NCBI RefSeq assembly: GCF_007197575.1
Contig: NZ_CP041616.1
Span: forward strand, 1,860,001-1,924,000
Length of the DNA: 64,000 nt
Direction: 5' to 3'
DNA from: Ornithinimicrobium ciconiae
GTDB lineage: Bacteria > Actinomycetota > Actinomycetes > Actinomycetales > Dermatophilaceae
Part shown: one piece after another, positions 9,840 to 37,195 of the stretch
Layout: each line of letters begins with the position of its first letter
How positions within the stretch are numbered: the first letter of the stretch is position 1
Position numbers and translations under genes: made by a program
The notes under the pieces: model-generated
What the model saw: only the letters and a program-made list of their open reading frames with translations
What the model was told of the DNA's origin: nothing
Databases searched by the model: none

Positions 9840-10427
9840 TCAGCGGCGGTGGGCCACGACGGGCTCGCCGCGCTTGATCTGGGGTCGCGGCACGCGCGAC
9901 ATGCGCATCTGCAGGGAGCGGAGCGCGACATACCACCCGAGCCCGCCGGCGGCGCTCTCGCCGAACTCCTCGGTGACGCGCTTCTTGACCCGGCGGGTGA
10001 GGAACCAGGCGTCCAGGACGCCAATGGCCATCACGCCATAGACCAGCGGCAGGATGAGCAACTGCATCCGCGGGTTGGTCCCGGCAAAGAGCATCAGGGC
10101 CAGCACGATCAGCATCAGCGGCAGCAGGAACTCACCGATGTTCCAGCGGGCGTCGACGATGTCGCGCGCCAGCCGCTTGGCCCCGCCCTGGTCCCGCTTG
10201 GGCAGATACTTCTCCTCGCCGCGCAGCATGCCCTGCCGGACCTGCTCACGCTCGGCCCGCTGACGGGTCTTGACGTCAGCCTTGGCCGCCTTGGCGTTGC
10301 CGACGAGGGGTCGCTTGTTGGCGGCCTCCTGGTCCCTGCGCTTGGGCGTCGGACGGTTCTTGGCGCCCGGGCGCTCCTGGATCATCGGAGTCGGCTCTGG
10401 CTCGGGGGCGGCTTTCTTGCGGAACAC
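9840..10427 (-). CDS. DUF3043 domain membrane protein
   Basis: This is an actinobacterial integral membrane protein of unknown function (mycobacterial Rv2206-like). The 195 residues start with a basic, proline-rich cytoplasmic region containing KKAAPEPEPTP and KNRPTPKRRDQEAANKRPL, typical of DUF3043. Two transmembrane helices follow (FLLPLMLIVLALMLFAG and LLILPLVYGVMAIGVLDAWFL), then a basic tail ending MRMSRVPRPQIKRGEP. I chose GTG 10427 because TACAGT six bases upstream is a good -10 box for a leaderless mRNA, and family members begin with FRK/FRR after the initiator. It is divergent from the dipeptidase, the two starts being 39 bases apart. Confidence 0.88.
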   Translation of the reverse strand: MFRKKAAPEPEPTPMIQERPGAKNRPTPKRRDQEAANKRPLVGNAKAAKADVKTRQRAEREQVRQGMLRGEEKYLPKRDQGGAKRLARDIVDARWNIGEFLLPLMLIVLALMLFAGTNPRMQLLILPLVYGVMAIGVLDAWFLTRRVKKRVTEEFGESAAGGLGWYVALRSLQMRMSRVPRPQIKRGEPVVAHRR

Positions 10428-15269: not shown

Positions 15270-16214
15270 ATGAGATGGTCGGCGTTGGTGGCGGCGGGTG
15301 CTGTGACGATGGCTCTTGCTGGGTGCGGCTCGGAGACCGCACCACCGGCTGGGGATCGGTCGACATCGACGGGTGATGGCGCGTTCACCACGACGGGGTC
15401 AGCGAGCAGTTCCTCAAGCCCGGTGATCGATCCCGGTGTGGAGCTGGTGGCACACGGCATACTCATGCAGCGGGAGCCGTCAGCCGACGTCGAGATCTGC
15501 ATCGGGGGAGTGGCTGAGTCGCTCCCGCCCCAGTGCAGCGGCCCGACGCTGGAGGGTGAGTTCGACTGGGACACAGTGGAGGCACGGTCACAGAGCGGGG
15601 TCACCTGGACCGACGAGTCCTACTTCGCGGTGGGGCACTACACCGCAGGAGAGGCCGATGAGGGCACGATCGCGTTGACCCGGCCGGTCAGTGCTGACCC
15701 GCCCGATGGTTTCACCCCGCCAGAGTTCGAGGACACGGGTTTTCCGCAGCTGTGTGACGATCCCACGGCGGACATCGCCGATGTCGACCAGGCCGCGCGG
15801 ACAGAGGGAAGCGGAGGTTTCGACGAGGAACAGGCGCTCCAGGAACGGCTTCACACCCTCGACGGCTATGTCACTTCGTGGGTCTCCGATGGTGGCCCAC
15901 TGATGAACGTGGTGGTCAACTCCGACCCGGAGACCGCGCGCGCGGCCTTGCGTGAGGTCTTCCAGGGGCCGCTCTGCGTCGTCCAGCGGGACCTGCCCTC
16001 AGAGGAGGATGCGCGGGCTGCGCAGGAGGCGCTCAGCGCTGAGTGGGACGAACTGCAACTTCTAGGAGCCGGCAGCGGCGGAGTGACCGGCGTGCCGAGT
16101 GCCTATGTGACTCTCGCGGACCAGGCGACCGTCGACCGGATCCACGAACTGGTCTCGCCCTGGCTGACTCCGGACCAGATCGTGATCAACAGCGCGCTAC
16201 AGCCGCTGGAGTGA
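15270..16214 (+). CDS. Secreted lipoprotein, unknown function
   Basis: This is a lipoprotein of 314 residues. The signal MRWSALVAAGAVTMALAGC contains a clear lipobox LAGC with Cys19. A Ser/Thr-rich tether follows (about 20-50), then a mostly acidic globular domain with four or more cysteines (EICIGG, PPQCSG, LCDDP, PLCVVQ) that could form disulfides. No catalytic motif is evident. ATG 15270 is chosen because the signal peptide starts there. It is divergent from the duplicated membrane protein and ends at a strong bidirectional terminator. Its role may be tied to those neighbours, but I cannot show that. Confidence 0.85.
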   Translation: MRWSALVAAGAVTMALAGCGSETAPPAGDRSTSTGDGAFTTTGSASSSSSPVIDPGVELVAHGILMQREPSADVEICIGGVAESLPPQCSGPTLEGEFDWDTVEARSQSGVTWTDESYFAVGHYTAGEADEGTIALTRPVSADPPDGFTPPEFEDTGFPQLCDDPTADIADVDQAARTEGSGGFDEEQALQERLHTLDGYVTSWVSDGGPLMNVVVNSDPETARAALREVFQGPLCVVQRDLPSEEDARAAQEALSAEWDELQLLGAGSGGVTGVPSAYVTLADQATVDRIHELVSPWLTPDQIVINSALQPLE

Positions 16215-16257
16215 GCCCGTGGCGTGGGTTTCGGCTCGCGCCGCGCGGGACACAACA

Positions 16258-16287
16258 AAGGGCGCTCCCCGCGTGGGGAGCGCCCTT
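16258..16287. terminator. Bidirectional intrinsic terminator
   Basis: A 13-bp perfect stem AAGGGCGCTCCCC (16258-16270) with a GCGT loop and its complement (16275-16287) lies between convergent genes. A/T runs flank both sides. Confidence 0.85.
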
Positions 16288-16302
16288 CGTGTGAACTCGA
16301 CG

Positions 16303-17091
16303 TCAGTTGTTCTCGGTCGACTCGTCTGTGCTGACGTCGGGAGCGGAAGTCACCTCAGCGGTGTCCACCGTCTGCTCCTCGACCGGCTCGGTCTCCTCGA
16401 CTACGGGTGCCTCCACTGCGGGCTCCTCAATGGCAGGTGCTTCGACAGTTGGCTCCTCGACGGTCTCGATCGGCGTCTCAGTCTCGACAGCGGGCTCTTC
16501 GGCCACGGAACTAGGCTCTGAGATGGAGTCTGTGCAGCCAGGAGGCGAGACGGCAGACGTCGTAACGCCTTCACGCTCCACCATGCAGTCGCTCTTCCGG
16601 ATCCACTCCCAGCCGATGGCCTGGCCTTCATTCGGACTGCTTCCATAGCCTCCCGACGTGACGTAGAAAGTCACTGAACCAGCCCCCGCAGGGATGCAGA
16701 CGGAATTAGTGCTGGTGGTCCCGCAAGTGCCAACGGTGCACCCTGTGTTTACTGGCGCACAGGTAGCGGGATTTGTTACAACGCTGTGGACGCCAACCGG
16801 CGTCGTCCCGATCGTGTACGACGTGAACTTTATGTAGAAGTCCTCGTCAGATGGGTTCGCCACCGTCACCGGCACCCCGTAGGACTGCTTGGGAACACAC
16901 GAGGTCGTGCAACTATTGCCCGGATTCTTGTACGCGTTGGAGAAGTCGAAGACCGGCGGCGGCGGTACGGACGAGGCGGCCATCGCCGGTGCGGCAGAGG
17001 CCACCACCACGGCAGGCACTGCCCAGGCGGCGCCCTTGACGATAGTGCGGCGAGCTGGGCGCGATCCCGACGTGTTGGTCTCGGTGGCCAT
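16303..17091 (-). CDS. Tat-exported cell-surface protein, paralog 1
   Basis: This is an exported protein of 262 residues. A twin-arginine leader PARRTIVKGAAWAVPAVVV ends near residue 39 (AMAAS). The mature domain (about 45-180) is rich in Ser/Thr/Gly with several cysteines (NSCTTSCVP, TCAPVNTGCTVGTCG, VCIPAG) and looks like a beta-sandwich. The C-terminal 75 residues are an acidic Glu/Pro/Val/Thr repeat tail (EEPTVEAP-like units). There is no LPXTG motif or C-terminal membrane helix, so the tail may bind the wall non-covalently or project outward. It shares the leader and a promoter motif with the gene at 17225. A TTGACG/TATCCT promoter precedes it. Function unknown. Confidence 0.82.
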   Translation of the reverse strand: MATETNTSGSRPARRTIVKGAAWAVPAVVVASAAPAMAASSVPPPPVFDFSNAYKNPGNSCTTSCVPKQSYGVPVTVANPSDEDFYIKFTSYTIGTTPVGVHSVVTNPATCAPVNTGCTVGTCGTTSTNSVCIPAGAGSVTFYVTSGGYGSSPNEGQAIGWEWIRKSDCMVEREGVTTSAVSPPGCTDSISEPSSVAEEPAVETETPIETVEEPTVEAPAIEEPAVEAPVVEETEPVEEQTVDTAEVTSAPDVSTDESTENN

Positions 17092-17136
17092 GCGGTGGTT
17101 CCCCTCTAAATGTGGACAGGCAGGAGCTTCAGCGCA

Positions 17137-17188
17137 AGGATACCCGGGATAGTGGAAGCGTCAAGTTGACACCCCCATTTGGTCAAGG
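17137..17188 (-). promoter_or_regulatory. Promoter and shared upstream box of Tat paralog 1
   Basis: On the minus strand TTGACG (17164-17159) and TATCCT (17142-17137) are 16 bases apart, a good vegetative promoter. Upstream lies CCTTGACCAAA (17188-17178), identical over 11 bases to a box before paralog 2. Confidence 0.6.
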
Positions 17189-17224
17189 TTAGGCAAACGA
17201 AAGGAAGAGGCACCGCGTGAGGCG

Positions 17225-18001
17225 TCAGCCGACGGTGAACTGCACTTCTTCCTTCTCCACCGCGGCCGGCTGGGTGGTCGCGACTTCCGGGGACGCATCT
17301 TCGGGCGATGCAGTCTGTGCGGCCGTGTCCGTGTCCGTGGCAGCGCTCTCGGCGTTCGCCTCGGCGTCCGGCTCAACCTTCTCGTAGTACACAACGTTGC
17401 TGGGGAAGCTCACCTCACGGGTGAAGGCGATGGTCTCGCCGTTGATCCCTACCGAACGCGTGATCTTTTGTCGCCGGTTGTTCGGGCAGGAGCCGTTGCT
17501 TGTTCCTACGAAGTGTGGCCGTCCGTTCAGCACGACCTCAGGAAGCCCGTCTGAGCCGGTGCCATTGCTGTACGAGCCACTGTAGGTGGATCGATACAGG
17601 TAGAAGCCCTCCGAGTCGGTGCCGACAGAGGTCGGCGTGGACCAGCCGTTGTTGCCCGTGTCTGTCTGCCAGGAGACCTGATAAGGAAGGTGAATTGTCA
17701 GACTCGGAGCAGTCGTGATCTGCGAGCTGGTCGCGTCCCACACCCACAGCCCGAGCCTTGTCCCGTTGTAGTAGCCGGCGCCGTCGTGGTACCCGTCGTA
17801 GCGGACCCGGCAGGTGGAGAAGGGCCACCCGGTTGTCCCGCGTGAGATCACGACCCACCCGTTGAGGCCAGGCTCAGGGGATGCGGCCATTGCGGGTGCC
17901 GCGGCGGCTAGGGTGACGGCGGGCACAGCCCAGGCGGCACCCTTGACGATGGTGCGGCGGCTGGCGCTGCGTGGAGCCGCGTCGGTCTGAGCGTCGGGCA
18001 T
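17225..18001 (-). CDS. Tat-exported cell-surface protein, paralog 2
   Basis: This protein of 258 residues has a leader SRRTIVKGAAWAVPAVTLAA nearly identical to that of the protein at 16303. The mature domain (about 45-200) is rich in Trp, Tyr, Gly and Ser (GLNGWVVISRG, RLGLWVWDATSS, GFYLYRSTYSGSYSNG), which suggests a beta-rich carbohydrate- or surface-binding fold, followed by an acidic Ala/Thr/Glu/Asp tail. No sorting signal is visible. The mature part is not obviously homologous to paralog 1 apart from leader and tail style. ATG 18001 is chosen for GGAGGGG eight bases upstream; TTG 18004 is possible. It has its own promoter. Function unknown. Confidence 0.82.
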   Translation of the reverse strand: MPDAQTDAAPRSASRRTIVKGAAWAVPAVTLAAAAPAMAASPEPGLNGWVVISRGTTGWPFSTCRVRYDGYHDGAGYYNGTRLGLWVWDATSSQITTAPSLTIHLPYQVSWQTDTGNNGWSTPTSVGTDSEGFYLYRSTYSGSYSNGTGSDGLPEVVLNGRPHFVGTSNGSCPNNRRQKITRSVGINGETIAFTREVSFPSNVVYYEKVEPDAEANAESAATDTDTAAQTASPEDASPEVATTQPAAVEKEEVQFTVG

Positions 18002-18037
18002 CAAGAATTCCCCTCCGAGAGTTTGAGATTCACCACA

Positions 18038-18068
18038 GCCTTACGGACGGGCAAAGGTTTGGTCAAGG
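18038..18068 (-). promoter_or_regulatory. Promoter of Tat paralog 2
   Basis: On the minus strand TTGACC (18066-18061) and TAAGGC (18043-18038) are 17 bases apart. The -35 lies inside the box CCTTGACCAAA (18068-18058) shared with paralog 1. Confidence 0.6.
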
Positions 18069-18146
18069 AAAGTTCATGAATTGACAGTGTGATGTGTGCC
18101 ACATCCAGCTGTCGGCCTCCGCGTCAGAGCCAGCGAACGACAGCGC

Positions 18147-18152
18147 TAGGAT
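18147..18152 (+). promoter_or_regulatory. -10 box TAGGAT of the trpS leader transcript
   Basis: TAGGAT ends six bases before the ATG of the Trp leader peptide at 18159, so the mRNA should begin on that AUG. The -35 region is weak. Confidence 0.5.
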
Positions 18153-18158
18153 GACGCC

Positions 18159-18203
18159 ATGACAACGCGCGCTGCCTGGTGGCCGTCCACACGACGGCCC
18201 TGA
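18159..18203 (+). CDS. trpS leader peptide with tandem Trp codons
   Basis: This 14-residue open frame reads MTTRAAWWPSTRRP and stops at TGA 18201-18203. Two adjacent Trp codons (18177-18182) in so short a peptide, followed at once by competing hairpins and then trpS, are the hallmark of ribosome-mediated attenuation. The second Trp codon overlaps the first hairpin strand. A TAGGAT box six bases upstream suggests a leaderless transcript, so no ribosome-binding site is needed. The peptide itself need not have any function after synthesis. Confidence 0.8.
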   Translation: MTTRAAWWPSTRRP

Positions 18204-18250
18204 GCACGCACCCAGACCTGCACACCAAGGCCGTCCGAATGGGCGGCCTT
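18181..18250 (+). promoter_or_regulatory. Transcription attenuator of trpS
   Basis: Four strands can pair in alternative ways. Strand 1 is GGCCGTC (18181-18187), strand 2 GACGGCC (18193-18199), strand 3 AAGGCCGTCC (18227-18236) and strand 4 GGGCGGCCTT (18241-18250). Strands 1:2 and 3:4 form with Trp present, 3:4 being a 10-bp terminator-like stem with one G-U pair and a GAAT loop. A ribosome stalled on the Trp codons masks strand 1 and frees 2 to pair with 3 over seven perfect base pairs. No long U run follows strand 4, as is common in high-GC genomes. Confidence 0.75.
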
Positions 18251-18291
18251 GACCTGTGTCCGGGCAGCTCCCGGGCGGCGGAAAGGCGACC

Positions 18292-19434
18292 ATGACCACG
18301 CAGACCGACCCCACGGCATACGAGAACACGGAGGATGCCGGCGTCGGTGACGCCCTCGCCGCGTCCACCTCCGACGCCTCCCTGGCCCGCACCATCGCGC
18401 GCTCCACCCAGATCCAGACTGAGATCGACAAGGACCCGAGCCGGTTCCGGGTCCTCACCGGTGACCGCCCCACGGGCAACCTGCACCTGGGCCACTACTT
18501 CGGCACGCTGCGCAGCCGAGTTCGCCTGCAGCAGCGTGGAGTCGAGACCTGGATCCTGATCGCCGACTACCAGGTGATCACCGACCGGGACGGTGTCGGA
18601 CCGATCCGCGAGCGCGTCTACTCCGTGCTCGCCGACTACCTGGCCGCCGGGCTGGATCCCGACAACACCACGATCTTCACGCACTCGTCCGTCCCGGCGC
18701 TCAACCAGCTGATGCTGCCCTTCCTGTCGCTGGTCACCGACTCCGAGCTGCGCCGCAACCCCACGGTCAAGGCCGAGTTCGAGGCCACCGGCGGGCGTCC
18801 GATGTCGGGGCTGCTGCTGACCTATCCGGTGCACCAGGCCGCGGACATCCTGTTCTGCAAGGCCAACATCGTCCCGGTCGGCAAGGACCAGGTGCCGCAC
18901 CTGGAGCAGGCCCGCGTCATCGCCCGCCGCTTCGACGAGCGCTATGGCCGCGCCGACGCCGCGCAGCCGGTCTTCCCCGCACCCGAGGCACTGCTCTCCG
19001 AGGTCACCAACCTGCTCGGCACCGATGGCACCAAGATGTCGAAGTCCAAGGGCAACACCATCGAGCTCGGCATGGACGCCGACACCACCGCCAAAATCCT
19101 CAAGAAGGCCGTCACCGACGCCGACCGGACCATCACCTATGACCCGGTGGGGCGCCCGGAGGTCTCCAACCTGGTCATGCTCGCCGCGATGGCCAGCGAC
19201 CGAGACCCGCATGAGGTTGCAGCCGAGATCGGGGACGGCGGCGGTGGCACCCTCAAGAAGGTGGTCACCGAGGCCGTCAACGAGCACTTCGCCCCGATCC
19301 GGGAGCGGCGGGCGGAGCTCGCGGCCGACCCCGGCTATCTCGAGCAGGTCCTCGCCCGCGGCAACGCCCGCGCCAACGAGGTCGCCGAGGCCACCCTGGA
19401 CGAGGTCCGCACCGCGATGCAGATGACCTACTGA
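18292..19434 (+). CDS. trpS: Tryptophanyl-tRNA synthetase
   Basis: This class I aminoacyl-tRNA synthetase charges tRNA-Trp. The 380 residues include a 45-residue N-terminal extension before the Rossmann core. The HIGH-type motif is in GNLHLGHYFG (about residues 63-72), and the second motif is KMSKSKGN (about 249-256). GKDQVPHLEQARVIARRF is also typical. ATG 18292 follows GGAAAGG. The upstream region contains a Trp leader peptide and attenuator, so expression should rise when charged tRNA-Trp falls. The gene is followed by a glycerate kinase with a one-base gap between TGA and GTG, and the two probably form an operon. Confidence 0.95.
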   Translation: MTTQTDPTAYENTEDAGVGDALAASTSDASLARTIARSTQIQTEIDKDPSRFRVLTGDRPTGNLHLGHYFGTLRSRVRLQQRGVETWILIADYQVITDRDGVGPIRERVYSVLADYLAAGLDPDNTTIFTHSSVPALNQLMLPFLSLVTDSELRRNPTVKAEFEATGGRPMSGLLLTYPVHQAADILFCKANIVPVGKDQVPHLEQARVIARRFDERYGRADAAQPVFPAPEALLSEVTNLLGTDGTKMSKSKGNTIELGMDADTTAKILKKAVTDADRTITYDPVGRPEVSNLVMLAAMASDRDPHEVAAEIGDGGGGTLKKVVTEAVNEHFAPIRERRAELAADPGYLEQVLARGNARANEVAEATLDEVRTAMQMTY

Positions 19435-19435
19435 C

Positions 19436-20542
19436 GTGCGGGTCGTCCTCGCCGCCGGGCAGTATGCCGAGTGGCCCGGCCCCCTCGCCGCCTCCGAGAG
19501 GCTTGCGGCGGGCTGGGCACGGCATGCTCCTGACGACCAGGTGATCCTCGCGCCGGTGTCGGACGGCGGGTCCGGCTTCGTGGAGGTGCTGGCGCACGCC
19601 CTCGACGCCCAGCCGACCCCCGTGGTCGTTTCTGGCCCCTCGGGCCAGGAAGTGCCGGCACAGTTCCTGCTGCACAACGACACCACCTATGTCGAGGCCG
19701 GTCAGGCCGCCGGACGGCACCTGGCTCCCGACGTGCTCGAAGCGGTCGCGGCGCCGCCGGAGGGCGGGGCTGCAGCGGCCGTGACCGCTCTCAGCGCACT
19801 CACCAGCAGGGGCGTCGGTGAGCTCATCAACGCCGCCCTGGACACCGGCGCCTCCCGGATCGTCCTCGGCTGCGGCGACCTGGCCAGTCACGACGGGGGC
19901 GTCGGCCTGCTGCAGGCCCTCGGCGCCGGCGAGGACCTGGCCGATCTGCCAGCCGCCCGGCAGCGCCTGGCCGGCACGACCCTGGTCCTCGCAGCCGCCA
20001 CGGAGCTGCCCCTGACCGGCTTCCACGGCGCCAGCGCTGCCCTCGGCACCGAGCACGGAGTGCCCCCGGAGGTGACCCAACGGCTGGAGGAGACGCTGGG
20101 GCTGCTCACCGAGCGGGTCAACCGGATCCTGCCGCAGCGCAAGGACCTGCTGACCGGCCAGCGGATCCGCCCCGAGCGCACCGACGGAGCCGGGGTCGGC
20201 GGGGGAGTGGGCTATGCCGCGATCCTGCTCGGCGCCCAGCCGGTCGTCGGAGCCCGGTTCGTGATCGAGGAGATCGGCCTGGCCGACGTGCTCCCCGGTG
20301 CGCTCGTGGTGACCGGCGGGGTGGCATACGACTGGCAGAGCGTGCACGACGGCGTCATCGCCGAGGTCGCCCGGGCGGCGCTCGAGGTCGGCGCGCCCAG
20401 CATCGTGCTGGCCGAACGGGTCGAGGTCGGCCGGCGCGAGGGGATGTCGCTGGGCATCTCGGGCGCCTATGACCCGCGTCAGGGCGAGGACCTCGCGGGC
20501 CTGGCCGAGCGCGTGGCACGCACCTGGTCACCACGAAGGTGA
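19436..20542 (+). CDS. Glycerate kinase family protein (syntenic copy)
   Basis: This is a shorter, 368-residue member of the glycerate kinase family, corresponding in position to mycobacterial Rv2205c beside erpA. Family features include LAPVSDGGSGFVEVL, ALDTGASRIVLGCGDLASHDGGVGL and the C-terminal VVTGGVAYDWQSVHDG. The first motif LAAGQYAEWPGPLAASE is divergent from the usual DKFKG pattern (compare the gene at 3993), and LTGEGxxD is replaced by VTGGVAYDW. It may therefore act on another substrate or be catalytically altered. GTG 19436 lies two bases after the trpS stop, so it is likely coupled to trpS. Confidence 0.85.
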   Translation: MRVVLAAGQYAEWPGPLAASERLAAGWARHAPDDQVILAPVSDGGSGFVEVLAHALDAQPTPVVVSGPSGQEVPAQFLLHNDTTYVEAGQAAGRHLAPDVLEAVAAPPEGGAAAAVTALSALTSRGVGELINAALDTGASRIVLGCGDLASHDGGVGLLQALGAGEDLADLPAARQRLAGTTLVLAAATELPLTGFHGASAALGTEHGVPPEVTQRLEETLGLLTERVNRILPQRKDLLTGQRIRPERTDGAGVGGGVGYAAILLGAQPVVGARFVIEEIGLADVLPGALVVTGGVAYDWQSVHDGVIAEVARAALEVGAPSIVLAERVEVGRREGMSLGISGAYDPRQGEDLAGLAERVARTWSPRR

Positions 20543-27029: not shown

Positions 27030-27065
27030 TGATGGCCGTGGTGCCCGTGGGCACCACGGCCATCA
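27030..27065 (-). terminator. Terminator of the ctaE-qcrCAB operon
   Basis: A perfect 16-bp stem TGATGGCCGTGGTGCC (27030-27045), CGTG loop and complement (27050-27065) lies 40 bases beyond the qcrB stop. On the minus strand it is followed by CTCTTTGGG. Confidence 0.85.
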
Positions 27066-32074: not shown

Positions 32075-33114
32075 GTCAGGAGCCCACCACCTGGTCCGAC
32101 CTGTTGACCACCCTGTGCACGGGTGGTGACCTGACGACCGAGGAAGCGGCGTGGGCGATGGACCGCGTCATGCGGGGGGAGGCCTCTCCGGCGCGGCTGG
32201 CCGCCTTCCTGACTGCACTGCGGACCAAGGGCGAGACCGCGGCCGAGATGCAGGGTCTGGCCGACACGATGTTGGCGCACGCACTGCGCTTTGCGGTCGA
32301 TGGGCCCAGCCTCGACATCGTCGGCACCGGTGGCGACCGCGCCCACACCGTCAATATCTCCACGATGTCCTCGGTCGTGGCGGCCGGGGCCGGGGTGCCG
32401 GTGGTCAAGCACGGCAACCGGGCGGCGTCCTCATCCTCCGGCTCGGCCGACGTGCTCGAGGCTCTCGGTGTCCGTCTCGACGCGACACCCGAGCAGGTCG
32501 TCTCGATCTTTCGCGAGGTCGGCATCACCTTCTGCTTTGCCCTGACCTTCCACCCCTCCTTCCGCCACTCGGCGGAGGTGCGCCGGGATCTGGGGATCGC
32601 CACGGCGTTCAACTTCCTCGGTCCGCTCACCAACCCCGCCCAGCCGCAGTATGCCGCCGTCGGGGTTGCCGATGCCCGCATGGCGCCGCTGGTGGCCGGC
32701 GTGTTCGCCGGACGTGGCAAGGACGCCGTCGTCTTTCGCGGGGACGACGGGCTCGATGAGCTGACCACCTCCGGCAACTCCCACGTCTGGTGGGTGCACG
32801 AGGGACGCGTGCAGGAGTTCGACCTGTCCCCGGAGCTGGTCGGCCTGACCGTCCACCCGGTCTCCGAGCTGCGTGGCGCCGACGCCCAGCACAATGCTGA
32901 CGTCGCACGACGCCTGTTTGCGGGTGAGCAGGGAGCGCCGCGCGTCGCGGTCCTGCTCAACGCCGGCACCGCCCTGACGCTGACGGCCCACCAGCCGACG
33001 TCGCAGGAAGAGTTCGTGGCAGCGGTCAGCGACGGGGTCGCTCGGGCTGCCGAGTCCATTGACTCTGGCAAGGCCACCAGCCTCATCGAGCGTTGGGCAG
33101 CTGCGACCGCCTGA
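32071..33114 (+). CDS. trpD: Anthranilate phosphoribosyltransferase
   Basis: TrpD joins anthranilate to PRPP in the second step of tryptophan synthesis. The 347 residues contain the PRPP site DIVGTGGDRAHTVNIST (about residues 78-94), KHGNRAASSSSGSADVLEALG (about 112-132) and FLGPLTNPAQPQ. The start GTG at 32071 overlaps the pseudo-receiver stop. No other trp biosynthesis gene is nearby, which is usual for this location in Actinobacteria. Tryptophan demand is also reflected in the attenuated trpS gene 14 kb away. Confidence 0.96.
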   Translation: MSQEPTTWSDLLTTLCTGGDLTTEEAAWAMDRVMRGEASPARLAAFLTALRTKGETAAEMQGLADTMLAHALRFAVDGPSLDIVGTGGDRAHTVNISTMSSVVAAGAGVPVVKHGNRAASSSSGSADVLEALGVRLDATPEQVVSIFREVGITFCFALTFHPSFRHSAEVRRDLGIATAFNFLGPLTNPAQPQYAAVGVADARMAPLVAGVFAGRGKDAVVFRGDDGLDELTTSGNSHVWWVHEGRVQEFDLSPELVGLTVHPVSELRGADAQHNADVARRLFAGEQGAPRVAVLLNAGTALTLTAHQPTSQEEFVAAVSDGVARAAESIDSGKATSLIERWAAATA

Positions 33115-37137: not shown

Positions 37138-37145
37138 TCCGGTCC

Positions 37146-37187
37146 ACGCATTCGCCCCCGCCCGAACCTTGGCGGGGGCGAATGCGT
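37146..37187. terminator. Bidirectional terminator between the CWB2 lipase and the Lrp-domain gene
   Basis: A perfect 17-bp stem ACGCATTCGCCCCCGCC (37146-37162), an 8-base loop and its complement (37171-37187) separate convergent genes. Confidence 0.9.
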
Positions 37188-37195
37188 GCGGGGGA

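Follow-up and report, generated by a model that had tools for sequence, protein, structure and literature searches.

A probable tryptophan-codon attenuator on a leaderless transcript upstream of the single trpS gene of Ornithinimicrobium ciconiae

The region upstream of the tryptophanyl-tRNA synthetase gene trpS in Ornithinimicrobium ciconiae almost certainly contains a real RNA switch. As judged from sequence and comparison, this switch very probably controls the only trpS gene of the genome through ribosome-mediated, trp-type transcription attenuation on a leaderless transcript. The evidence comprises a short ORF with two adjacent Trp codons (hereafter WW), a -10 box placed directly before it, a set of alternative RNA helices and the recurrence of this arrangement in many actinomycete lineages. 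The main doubt concerning transcription attenuation is the missing U-tract after the terminator-like hairpin.

Genomic context of trpS

The window, that is, the whole 64-kb stretch of DNA analyzed here, corresponds to positions 1860001-1924000 of a 4.09-Mb single-contig actinobacterial genome; coordinates refer to the window unless stated otherwise. An initial annotation of the sequence had taken the regulated gene for a tRNA synthetase, and family assignment agrees, as the downstream gene matches TIGR00233 with 230.6 bits (cut-off, 176.75). A search with this TrpS as query found one TrpRS in the genome. The nearest named relatives by TrpS identity all belong to Ornithinimicrobium (O. sp. F0845, 90%; O. 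murale, 89%; O. cavernae, 87%). The features of the locus are as follows.

18147..18152, + strand: -10 box TAGGAT, 6 nt before the leader ATG
18159..18203, + strand: leader ORF MTTRAAWWPSTRRP, presumed leaderless, 14 codons plus TGA (18201-18203)
18177..18182, + strand: regulatory Trp codons TGG TGG, codons 7 and 8 (from the sequence)
18181..18187, + strand: strand 1, GGCCGTC, 7 bp with strand 2
18193..18199, + strand: strand 2, GACGGCC, pairs with strand 1 or 3; begins 16 nt after the first Trp codon
18226..18236, + strand: strand 3, CAAGGCCGTCC; 18229-18235 pairs with strand 2 (antiterminator)
18241..18251, + strand: strand 4, GGGCGGCCTTG, terminator-like 11-bp hairpin with strand 3, without a U-tract
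18258..18276, + strand: small hairpin CCGGG...CCCGG between attenuator and ribosome-binding site (predicted fold, window only)
18280..18286, + strand: GGAAAGG, likely ribosome-binding site of trpS (from the sequence)
18292..19434, + strand: trpS, tryptophanyl-tRNA synthetase, 380 aa from ATG 18292, above the TIGR00233 cut-off, single copy

A divergent ORF upstream of trpS begins at 18004. This ORF (17225-18004) and its neighbor (16303-17091), both on the minus strand and both without an NCBIfam match, look like a pair of secreted proteins, putatively of the Tat type, with RRTIVKGAAWAVPAV and APAMAAS in both N-termini. Among tryptophan biosynthesis genes, trpD lies in the same window, about 13 kb from trpS (32107-33102, + strand, above the TIGR01245 cut-off), and trpB is found elsewhere on the contig, at 2508494. 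The trpE model TIGR00564 gave three matches in the genome, none reaching the cut-off. No leaderless WW leader was found in seven stretches of the genome scanned around trpB, trpD and the trpE-like loci.

Leader ORF and promoter

The TAGGAT box six bases upstream, the 14-codon frame and its two Trp codons were correct to the base in the initial annotation. TAGGAT is the sole TANNNT on the plus strand within 18005-18291. For the leader promoter, no -35 element is recognizable, and a consensus scan gives no sigma-70-type promoter. The position of the -10 box, its conservation in relatives, the lack of any other TANNNT and the lack of a Shine-Dalgarno (SD) sequence together point to a leaderless start, and the leader transcript presumably begins at or beside the leader AUG.

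Two other promoter candidates were considered and rejected. TTGACA at 18081-18086 resembles a -35 element and has no TANNNT at the usual spacing. An internal trpS promoter after the terminator was discarded as well, TANNNT being absent from 18153-18291.

To assess chance occurrence, 18100-18291 was dinucleotide-shuffled 20,000 times. Of the shuffled sequences, 51 contained a WW leader 8-26 codons long, none of which had a TANNNT at 5-8 nt, so the full set occurred in no shuffle. Across the 64-kb window, short WW ORFs are opened by 13 start codons (seven on the plus strand, six on the minus strand), and the -10 geometry is found at this site only.

Alternative helices and proposed mechanism

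The four strands drawn in the initial annotation (18181-18187; 18193-18199; 18227-18236, AAGGCCGTCC; 18241-18250, GGGCGGCCTT) hold as given, except that helix 3:4 is one pair longer. With the outer C-G pair 18226/18251 included, it comprises 11 bp with one G-U. Helices 1:2, 2:3 and 3:4 are mutually exclusive wherever they share a strand, and strand 2 lies just past a ribosome stalled at the Trp codons (offset 16 nt). The minimum free energy of 18159-18262 is -50.3 kcal/mol (z -4.28), a value reached by none of 200 shuffles. Taken alone, the 2:3 stretch has z -3.08 (2/200 shuffles as low) and the 3:4 stretch z -3.75 (1/200), and the 1:2 stretch is unremarkable by energy (z -1.38, 10/200). Letters similar to those of the small hairpin at 18258-18276 occur in the five other genus members with the element, the fold itself having been predicted for the window only.

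Under the proposed mechanism, transcription from TAGGAT would start on or beside the leader AUG, and a ribosome could therefore load on the bare 5' end once it is out of RNA polymerase. With ample Trp-tRNA, the ribosome would reach the UGA at 18201-18203 and cover strand 2; strands 3 and 4 would pair, and transcription would stop before trpS. If charged Trp-tRNA is short, the ribosome would stall on UGG UGG with strand 1 covered and strand 2 free. Helix 2:3 would then form and block 3:4, and trpS would be transcribed. In the absence of a ribosome, 1:2 and 3:4 would both form, which corresponds to a basal off state. Sequence and comparison establish the ORF, its codons, the -10 geometry and the alternative helices with their covariation; the start site, the translation of the leader, the stalling and the ending of transcription by 3:4 without a U-tract are the parts of this scheme that we infer.

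Architecture across 61 leaders

Upstream regions of up to 500 nt (fewer at contig ends) were examined at 199 trpS loci. These consist of 80 named loci, 30 loci from 29 genus genomes (window included; 31 genomes searched) and 89 class loci. The class loci were drawn from a 393-genome sample; apart from the window, every row with an identity of 56% or more was taken (47 rows), together with 42 rows of lower identity selected manually from among the high-ranking ones. Of 67 rows with a WW ORF, three were false (L051, L077 and L083, without leader geometry) and three were duplicates (L001, L002 and L017, on contigs shared with L085, L084 and L082), which leaves 61 leaders. These are not independent events, because several stem from close species.

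A strict TANNNT stands 5-8 nt before the leader start codon in 57/61 leaders; in the remaining four, CATACT or CATAAT lies 6-7 nt upstream of that codon. The background rate at other ATG or GTG codons of the same stretches is 63/2650; where several starts were possible, the script chose the one with a -10 box, so the -10 count is slightly favored. An SD-like sequence precedes the leader in one of the 61. This conservation supports the leaderless start that the initial annotation had proposed. The same annotation had called leaderless attenuation unusual, a view that is not supported, given a published case of the same combination before trpS in Streptomyces lividans, leaderless leader peptides reported for C. 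diphtheriae ilvB and Sinorhizobium meliloti trpL, and the geometry in 57/61 leaders.

Helix 3:4 is the longest and best conserved of the three, reaching at least 8 bp in 60/61 leaders; 2:3 reaches at least 6 bp in 57/61 and 1:2 at least 5 bp in 58/61. All three helices are possible at these lengths in 55/61. Strand 2 was searched from 12 nt to about 40 nt downstream of the first W. In 59/61 leaders it begins 15-21 nt beyond the initial base of that codon; in one leader the distance is 28 nt, and one has no strand 2. At a spacing of 15-21 nt, a ribosome stalled on the Trp codons would sit over strand 1, with strand 2 still exposed. Weak cases exist, with L153 and L155 fitting badly and L011, L070 and L112 having a 5-bp 2:3 helix.

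Within the genus, the leader peptides of the five other members with the element read MTVRTTWWPSTRRP, MTPVRSWWPSTRRP, MTNVRSCWWLSSRRP, MTVVCSWWPSTRRH and MTCVRSWWPST. Helix 1:2 is cut to 4 bp in G016, and helix 2:3 to 6 bp in G009. The putative ribosome-binding site GGAAAGG is kept in five of the six genus members carrying the element and reads AGAAAGG in G009.

Covariation

Compensatory change was measured in alignment A1, whose 16 rows are 14 selected from the 61 leaders and two Georgenia sequences with one W. For helices 1:2 and 3:4 together, the paired fraction of cells is 90.3%; column shuffles give 82.4%, and sliding the pairing by 1-3 columns gives 22.7-51.5%. Twenty cells are changed on both sides against a shuffled mean of 6.9, and 0/500 shuffles are as high. 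For 2:3, 97.3% of cells are paired against 94.3% in shuffles, with six double-changed cells against 2.5 (0/500 as high), all in one pair. Two of the five measures fail to exceed the shuffles, namely pairs with a double change (5 for 1:2 and 3:4; 120/500 shuffles as high) and further pair types (16; 146/500), and the same two measures fail for 2:3.

The clearest example is a four-site change. Positions 18186/18194/18234/18243 go from U, A, U, G/A to C, G, C, G, and the complementarity of 2:3 and 3:4 is kept in 6/6 changed rows. Two of these six show the matching change in strand 1, and the other four use a strand 1 shifted by one base. An analogous set is seen for L124 in the Streptomyces alignment A2, where CGCTCC/GGAGCG becomes CGCCCC/GGGGCG and GTTC becomes GTCC. 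The claim that 1:2, 2:3 and 3:4 can all pair is borne out in the window and supported by both conservation (55/61) and covariation.

A covariance model built from A1 scored 78.3 bits at this site, which is itself one of the 16 training rows. The next best match in the genome scored 25.6 bits and lies at 3052279-3052397 (E 0.0098), without a WW leader. In 148 class genomes, matches at E up to 0.01 were found in 65, and many of the weak ones are probably due to chance. Model searches yielded 37 loci (L215-L251), of which 26 adjoin a TrpRS and have a WW leader with a -10-like box, and seven are weak matches from the genome of the window itself that lack a leaderless WW leader. Three others (L237, L238 and L247) have Streptomyces-type leaders such as MFAHSTQNWWWTAHPAAH; the best NCBIfam match of the ORFs that follow is anthranilate synthase component I, below the cut-off in all cases, with frames cut by the locus end. 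These three leaders resemble the published trpL1 of S. lividans trpE, MFAHSTRNWWWTAHPAAH (PMC8079986), and so the element is of one kind with the trp biosynthesis attenuators of that group.

Further loci from these searches add variety. L251 (G144) has a WW leader, MIAYSFLWWPAS, with a -10 box and a model match; the fetched stretch has no TrpRS, and the longest downstream ORF has no NCBIfam match. In family f30 genomes, L231, L233, L234 and L250 hold a further TrpRS, 32-34% identical to that of the window, with the leaders MLTTPLALQWWPA, MLRNSFQWWPA and MLTTRSTQWWPA.

Distribution among relatives

The initial annotation had expected the WW codons and the complementarity to be kept in close relatives. 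This is so for the WW codons and strands 2, 3 and 4 in the six genus members that carry the element (G000, G002, G006, G009, G016 and G025, of 29 genomes with a TrpS match), and fails in the other 23, where the whole element is missing; these 23 include G005, which has the highest TrpS identity (92%). We read this patchy presence as a probable gain or loss of the whole module.

Among the named loci, a WW leader with a -10 box occurs in 15/80, a count in which three share contigs with genus genomes and two of the 80 loci have almost no upstream sequence. Class loci of the window's TrpS type have a WW leader in 38/47, with L136 cut off by the contig end, and class loci of other TrpRS types in 5/42 (L167, L180, L181, L182 and L185). 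L115 and L120 have leaderless leaders whose Trp codons are single or separated. In L014 and L015 (Georgenia ruanii and G. thermotolerans), the attenuator structure and the -10 box are kept and the second Trp codon is now Arg (WW to WR). These four loci, with one or separated W, were scored as lacking a leader. On a FastTree phylogeny of 184 rows, 58 of which have letters in fewer than half of the columns, the WW label requires 18 changes against a mean of 51 in shuffles. From this tree we say only that the label appears clustered, with several gains or losses.

Absence from G005 and most of the genus favors a reading without any regulation, in which a plain hairpin and a chance short ORF happen to lie upstream of trpS. 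The chance test, the presence in many actinomycete lineages, the covariation and the narrow spacing from codons to strand 2 all argue against that reading, and we regard it as very improbable.

Loci without the leader offer a further clue. A TANNNT 5-8 nt before an in-frame trpS start is found in 0/61 loci with the leader against 43/84 loci of the same type without a WW leader, and within the genus in 13/20 leader-less loci; for other TrpRS types the count is 2/45. A leader and a leaderless trpS thus exclude one another in these loci. These counts omit three duplicate contigs and three truncated or split loci, besides L001, L002 and L017. The pattern suggests that one leaderless promoter may serve either the leader or trpS itself.

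Proposed termination without a U-tract and alternative explanations

A U-tract after helix 3:4 is absent from the window, which has three T in the 9 nt past the stem, and a terminator scan for a stem plus T-run returned no site. Across the 61 leaders the count in these 9 nt ranges from 0 to 7 (2-3 in the six genus members), and at least four T are present in 22/61.

The lack of a U-tract would fit a translational attenuation, in which the alternative helices expose or hide the ribosome-binding site of trpS and transcription is not stopped. The distance from strand 4 to the trpS start, only 40 nt, would also suit this scheme. PMC13236596 says that cysteine genes of Mycobacterium smegmatis use translational attenuation, citing a paper with leaderless short ORFs in its title. 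Constrained folds speak against it, since the predicted accessibility from the ribosome-binding site to the AUG is 0.62 in the 'off' state (3:4) and 0.31 in the 'on' state (2:3), which is the wrong sign. Moreover, some homologous leaders do have T-runs after 3:4, as the 22/61 above show. Translational control therefore seems quite unlikely here.

Rho-dependent or other non-intrinsic termination under leader translation is a second way to account for the U-poor stem; helix 3:4 would then mainly shape or protect the 3' end. It draws on the low T counts of the genus and the 0-7 range among the 61 leaders, and on a survey of window hairpins. With long ORFs as crude stand-ins for genes, this survey found seven hairpins of at least 10 bp outside the ORF set; a spurious antisense ORF over trpS masked the attenuator's own hairpin. 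T-rich tails (4-5 T in 9 nt, on one strand) mark four of the seven listed (1183-1214, 9846-9871, 16258-16287 and 27030-27065), so this organism may prefer T-rich tails. In the other three (16218-16245, 20386-20413 and 37145-37188), neither side has more than two T in 9 nt, although 20386-20413 actually lies inside a glycerate kinase ORF. Against non-intrinsic termination stand the length and conservation of 3:4 (at least 8 bp in 60/61) and the 18-bp hairpin at 37145-37188, which follows an ORF end with one T in 9 nt on either strand, so that U-poor hairpins may serve as ends here. The genome thus has hairpins of both kinds, and how 3:4 would end transcription may be either way. We consider non-intrinsic termination improbable and retain transcription attenuation by 3:4 as the preferred reading.

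The same survey showed very strong hairpins (13-18 bp) near ORF ends at 37145-37188, 27030-27065 and 16258-16287. The latter two are T-poor on the plus side and have 4-5 T on the minus side.

In other phyla, T-boxes often precede synthetase genes, which raises the question of a T-box or another tRNA- or protein-sensing leader. Such elements are mentioned for ileS in Actinobacteria (PMC1262725). A search of 16000-20500 against Rfam at E up to 5 gave three weak matches, none in the leader and none a T-box, and a short Trp-rich ORF is present instead. A leader of this class is extremely improbable.

Relation to known attenuators

The E. coli trp operon attenuator is built on the logic of strands 1-4 and on two adjacent Trp codons, and the window element shares both. 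It has exclusive helices, with strand 2 past the stalled ribosome, and lacks the U-tract after 3:4. It further differs in that a synthetase gene is regulated and the transcript is predicted to be leaderless. The element thus appears to work like the E. coli-type trp attenuators, yet it is not a canonical member.

Among Streptomyces systems, trpRS1 is reportedly controlled by attenuation. Inducible, indolmycin-resistant TrpRS enzymes have been described in this genus (Kitabatake 2002; Vecchione and Sello 2009, as cited in PMC9437257). There, as proposed here, a synthetase gene is induced, but it is a second copy, whereas the trpS of the window is a single copy.

The closest precedent is trpL2 before trpS in S. 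lividans TK24, which PMC8079986 describes as leaderless, with two hairpins and no uridine-enriched sequence downstream; most of the leader peptides listed there are called leaderless. The window likewise has a short Trp ORF directly upstream of trpS, a -10 box placed for a start at the leader codon, two hairpins and no U-rich stretch. Unlike the window leader with its two Trp codons, trpL2 has one (MMTRTCTQLWRAA; PMC8079986). Its peptide is similar to the leader peptides of a TrpRS type (L180 and L224) that shares 35-37% identity with the TrpS of the window, which is itself of a different type.

An attenuator was predicted in 2005 before trpS2 of S. avermitilis and the trp operons of Streptomyces and Corynebacterium (PMC1262725). 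Those attenuators combine a Trp leader peptide, a terminator and an antiterminator with triples gGCC-rGCy-GGCC, and the window also has GGCC cores. Their trp-operon terminators have poly-U, in contrast to the putative terminator of the window. The word 'leaderless' is absent from the text of that paper.

Outside the actinomycetes, trpL/rnTrpL of Sinorhizobium meliloti encodes a 14-aa Trp leader peptide on an RNA that starts at the AUG (PMC7298713). The peptide length matches that of the window leader, but trpL precedes trpE(G) and belongs to an alphaproteobacterium. No report of leader-peptide attenuation in Ornithinimicrobium was found in a literature search lying mostly outside subscription journals. 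Within that literature, the broad distribution of such leaders across TrpRS types outside Streptomyces may likewise be unreported.

Implications

Given the S. lividans precedent, the window element does not represent a new mechanism; it adds a further well-supported case in a genus for which no report was found. Because a single -10 box precedes the leader ORF without an intervening 5' UTR, this clean and compact example of leaderless attenuation allows a direct test of how leaderless initiation is coupled to RNA folding. The 61 leaders include natural variants in which a T-run follows the terminator stem and others in which it is missing, and relatives with an apparently leaderless trpS provide a natural comparison. 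More tentatively, and with somewhat less than even confidence, we propose that leaderless Trp-codon attenuation may be an old and widespread means by which actinomycetes control trpS, found with several diverged TrpRS types and acquired or lost more than once as a module lying between a leaderless promoter and trpS, with a terminator that would work without a U-tract in several lineages, including this one.
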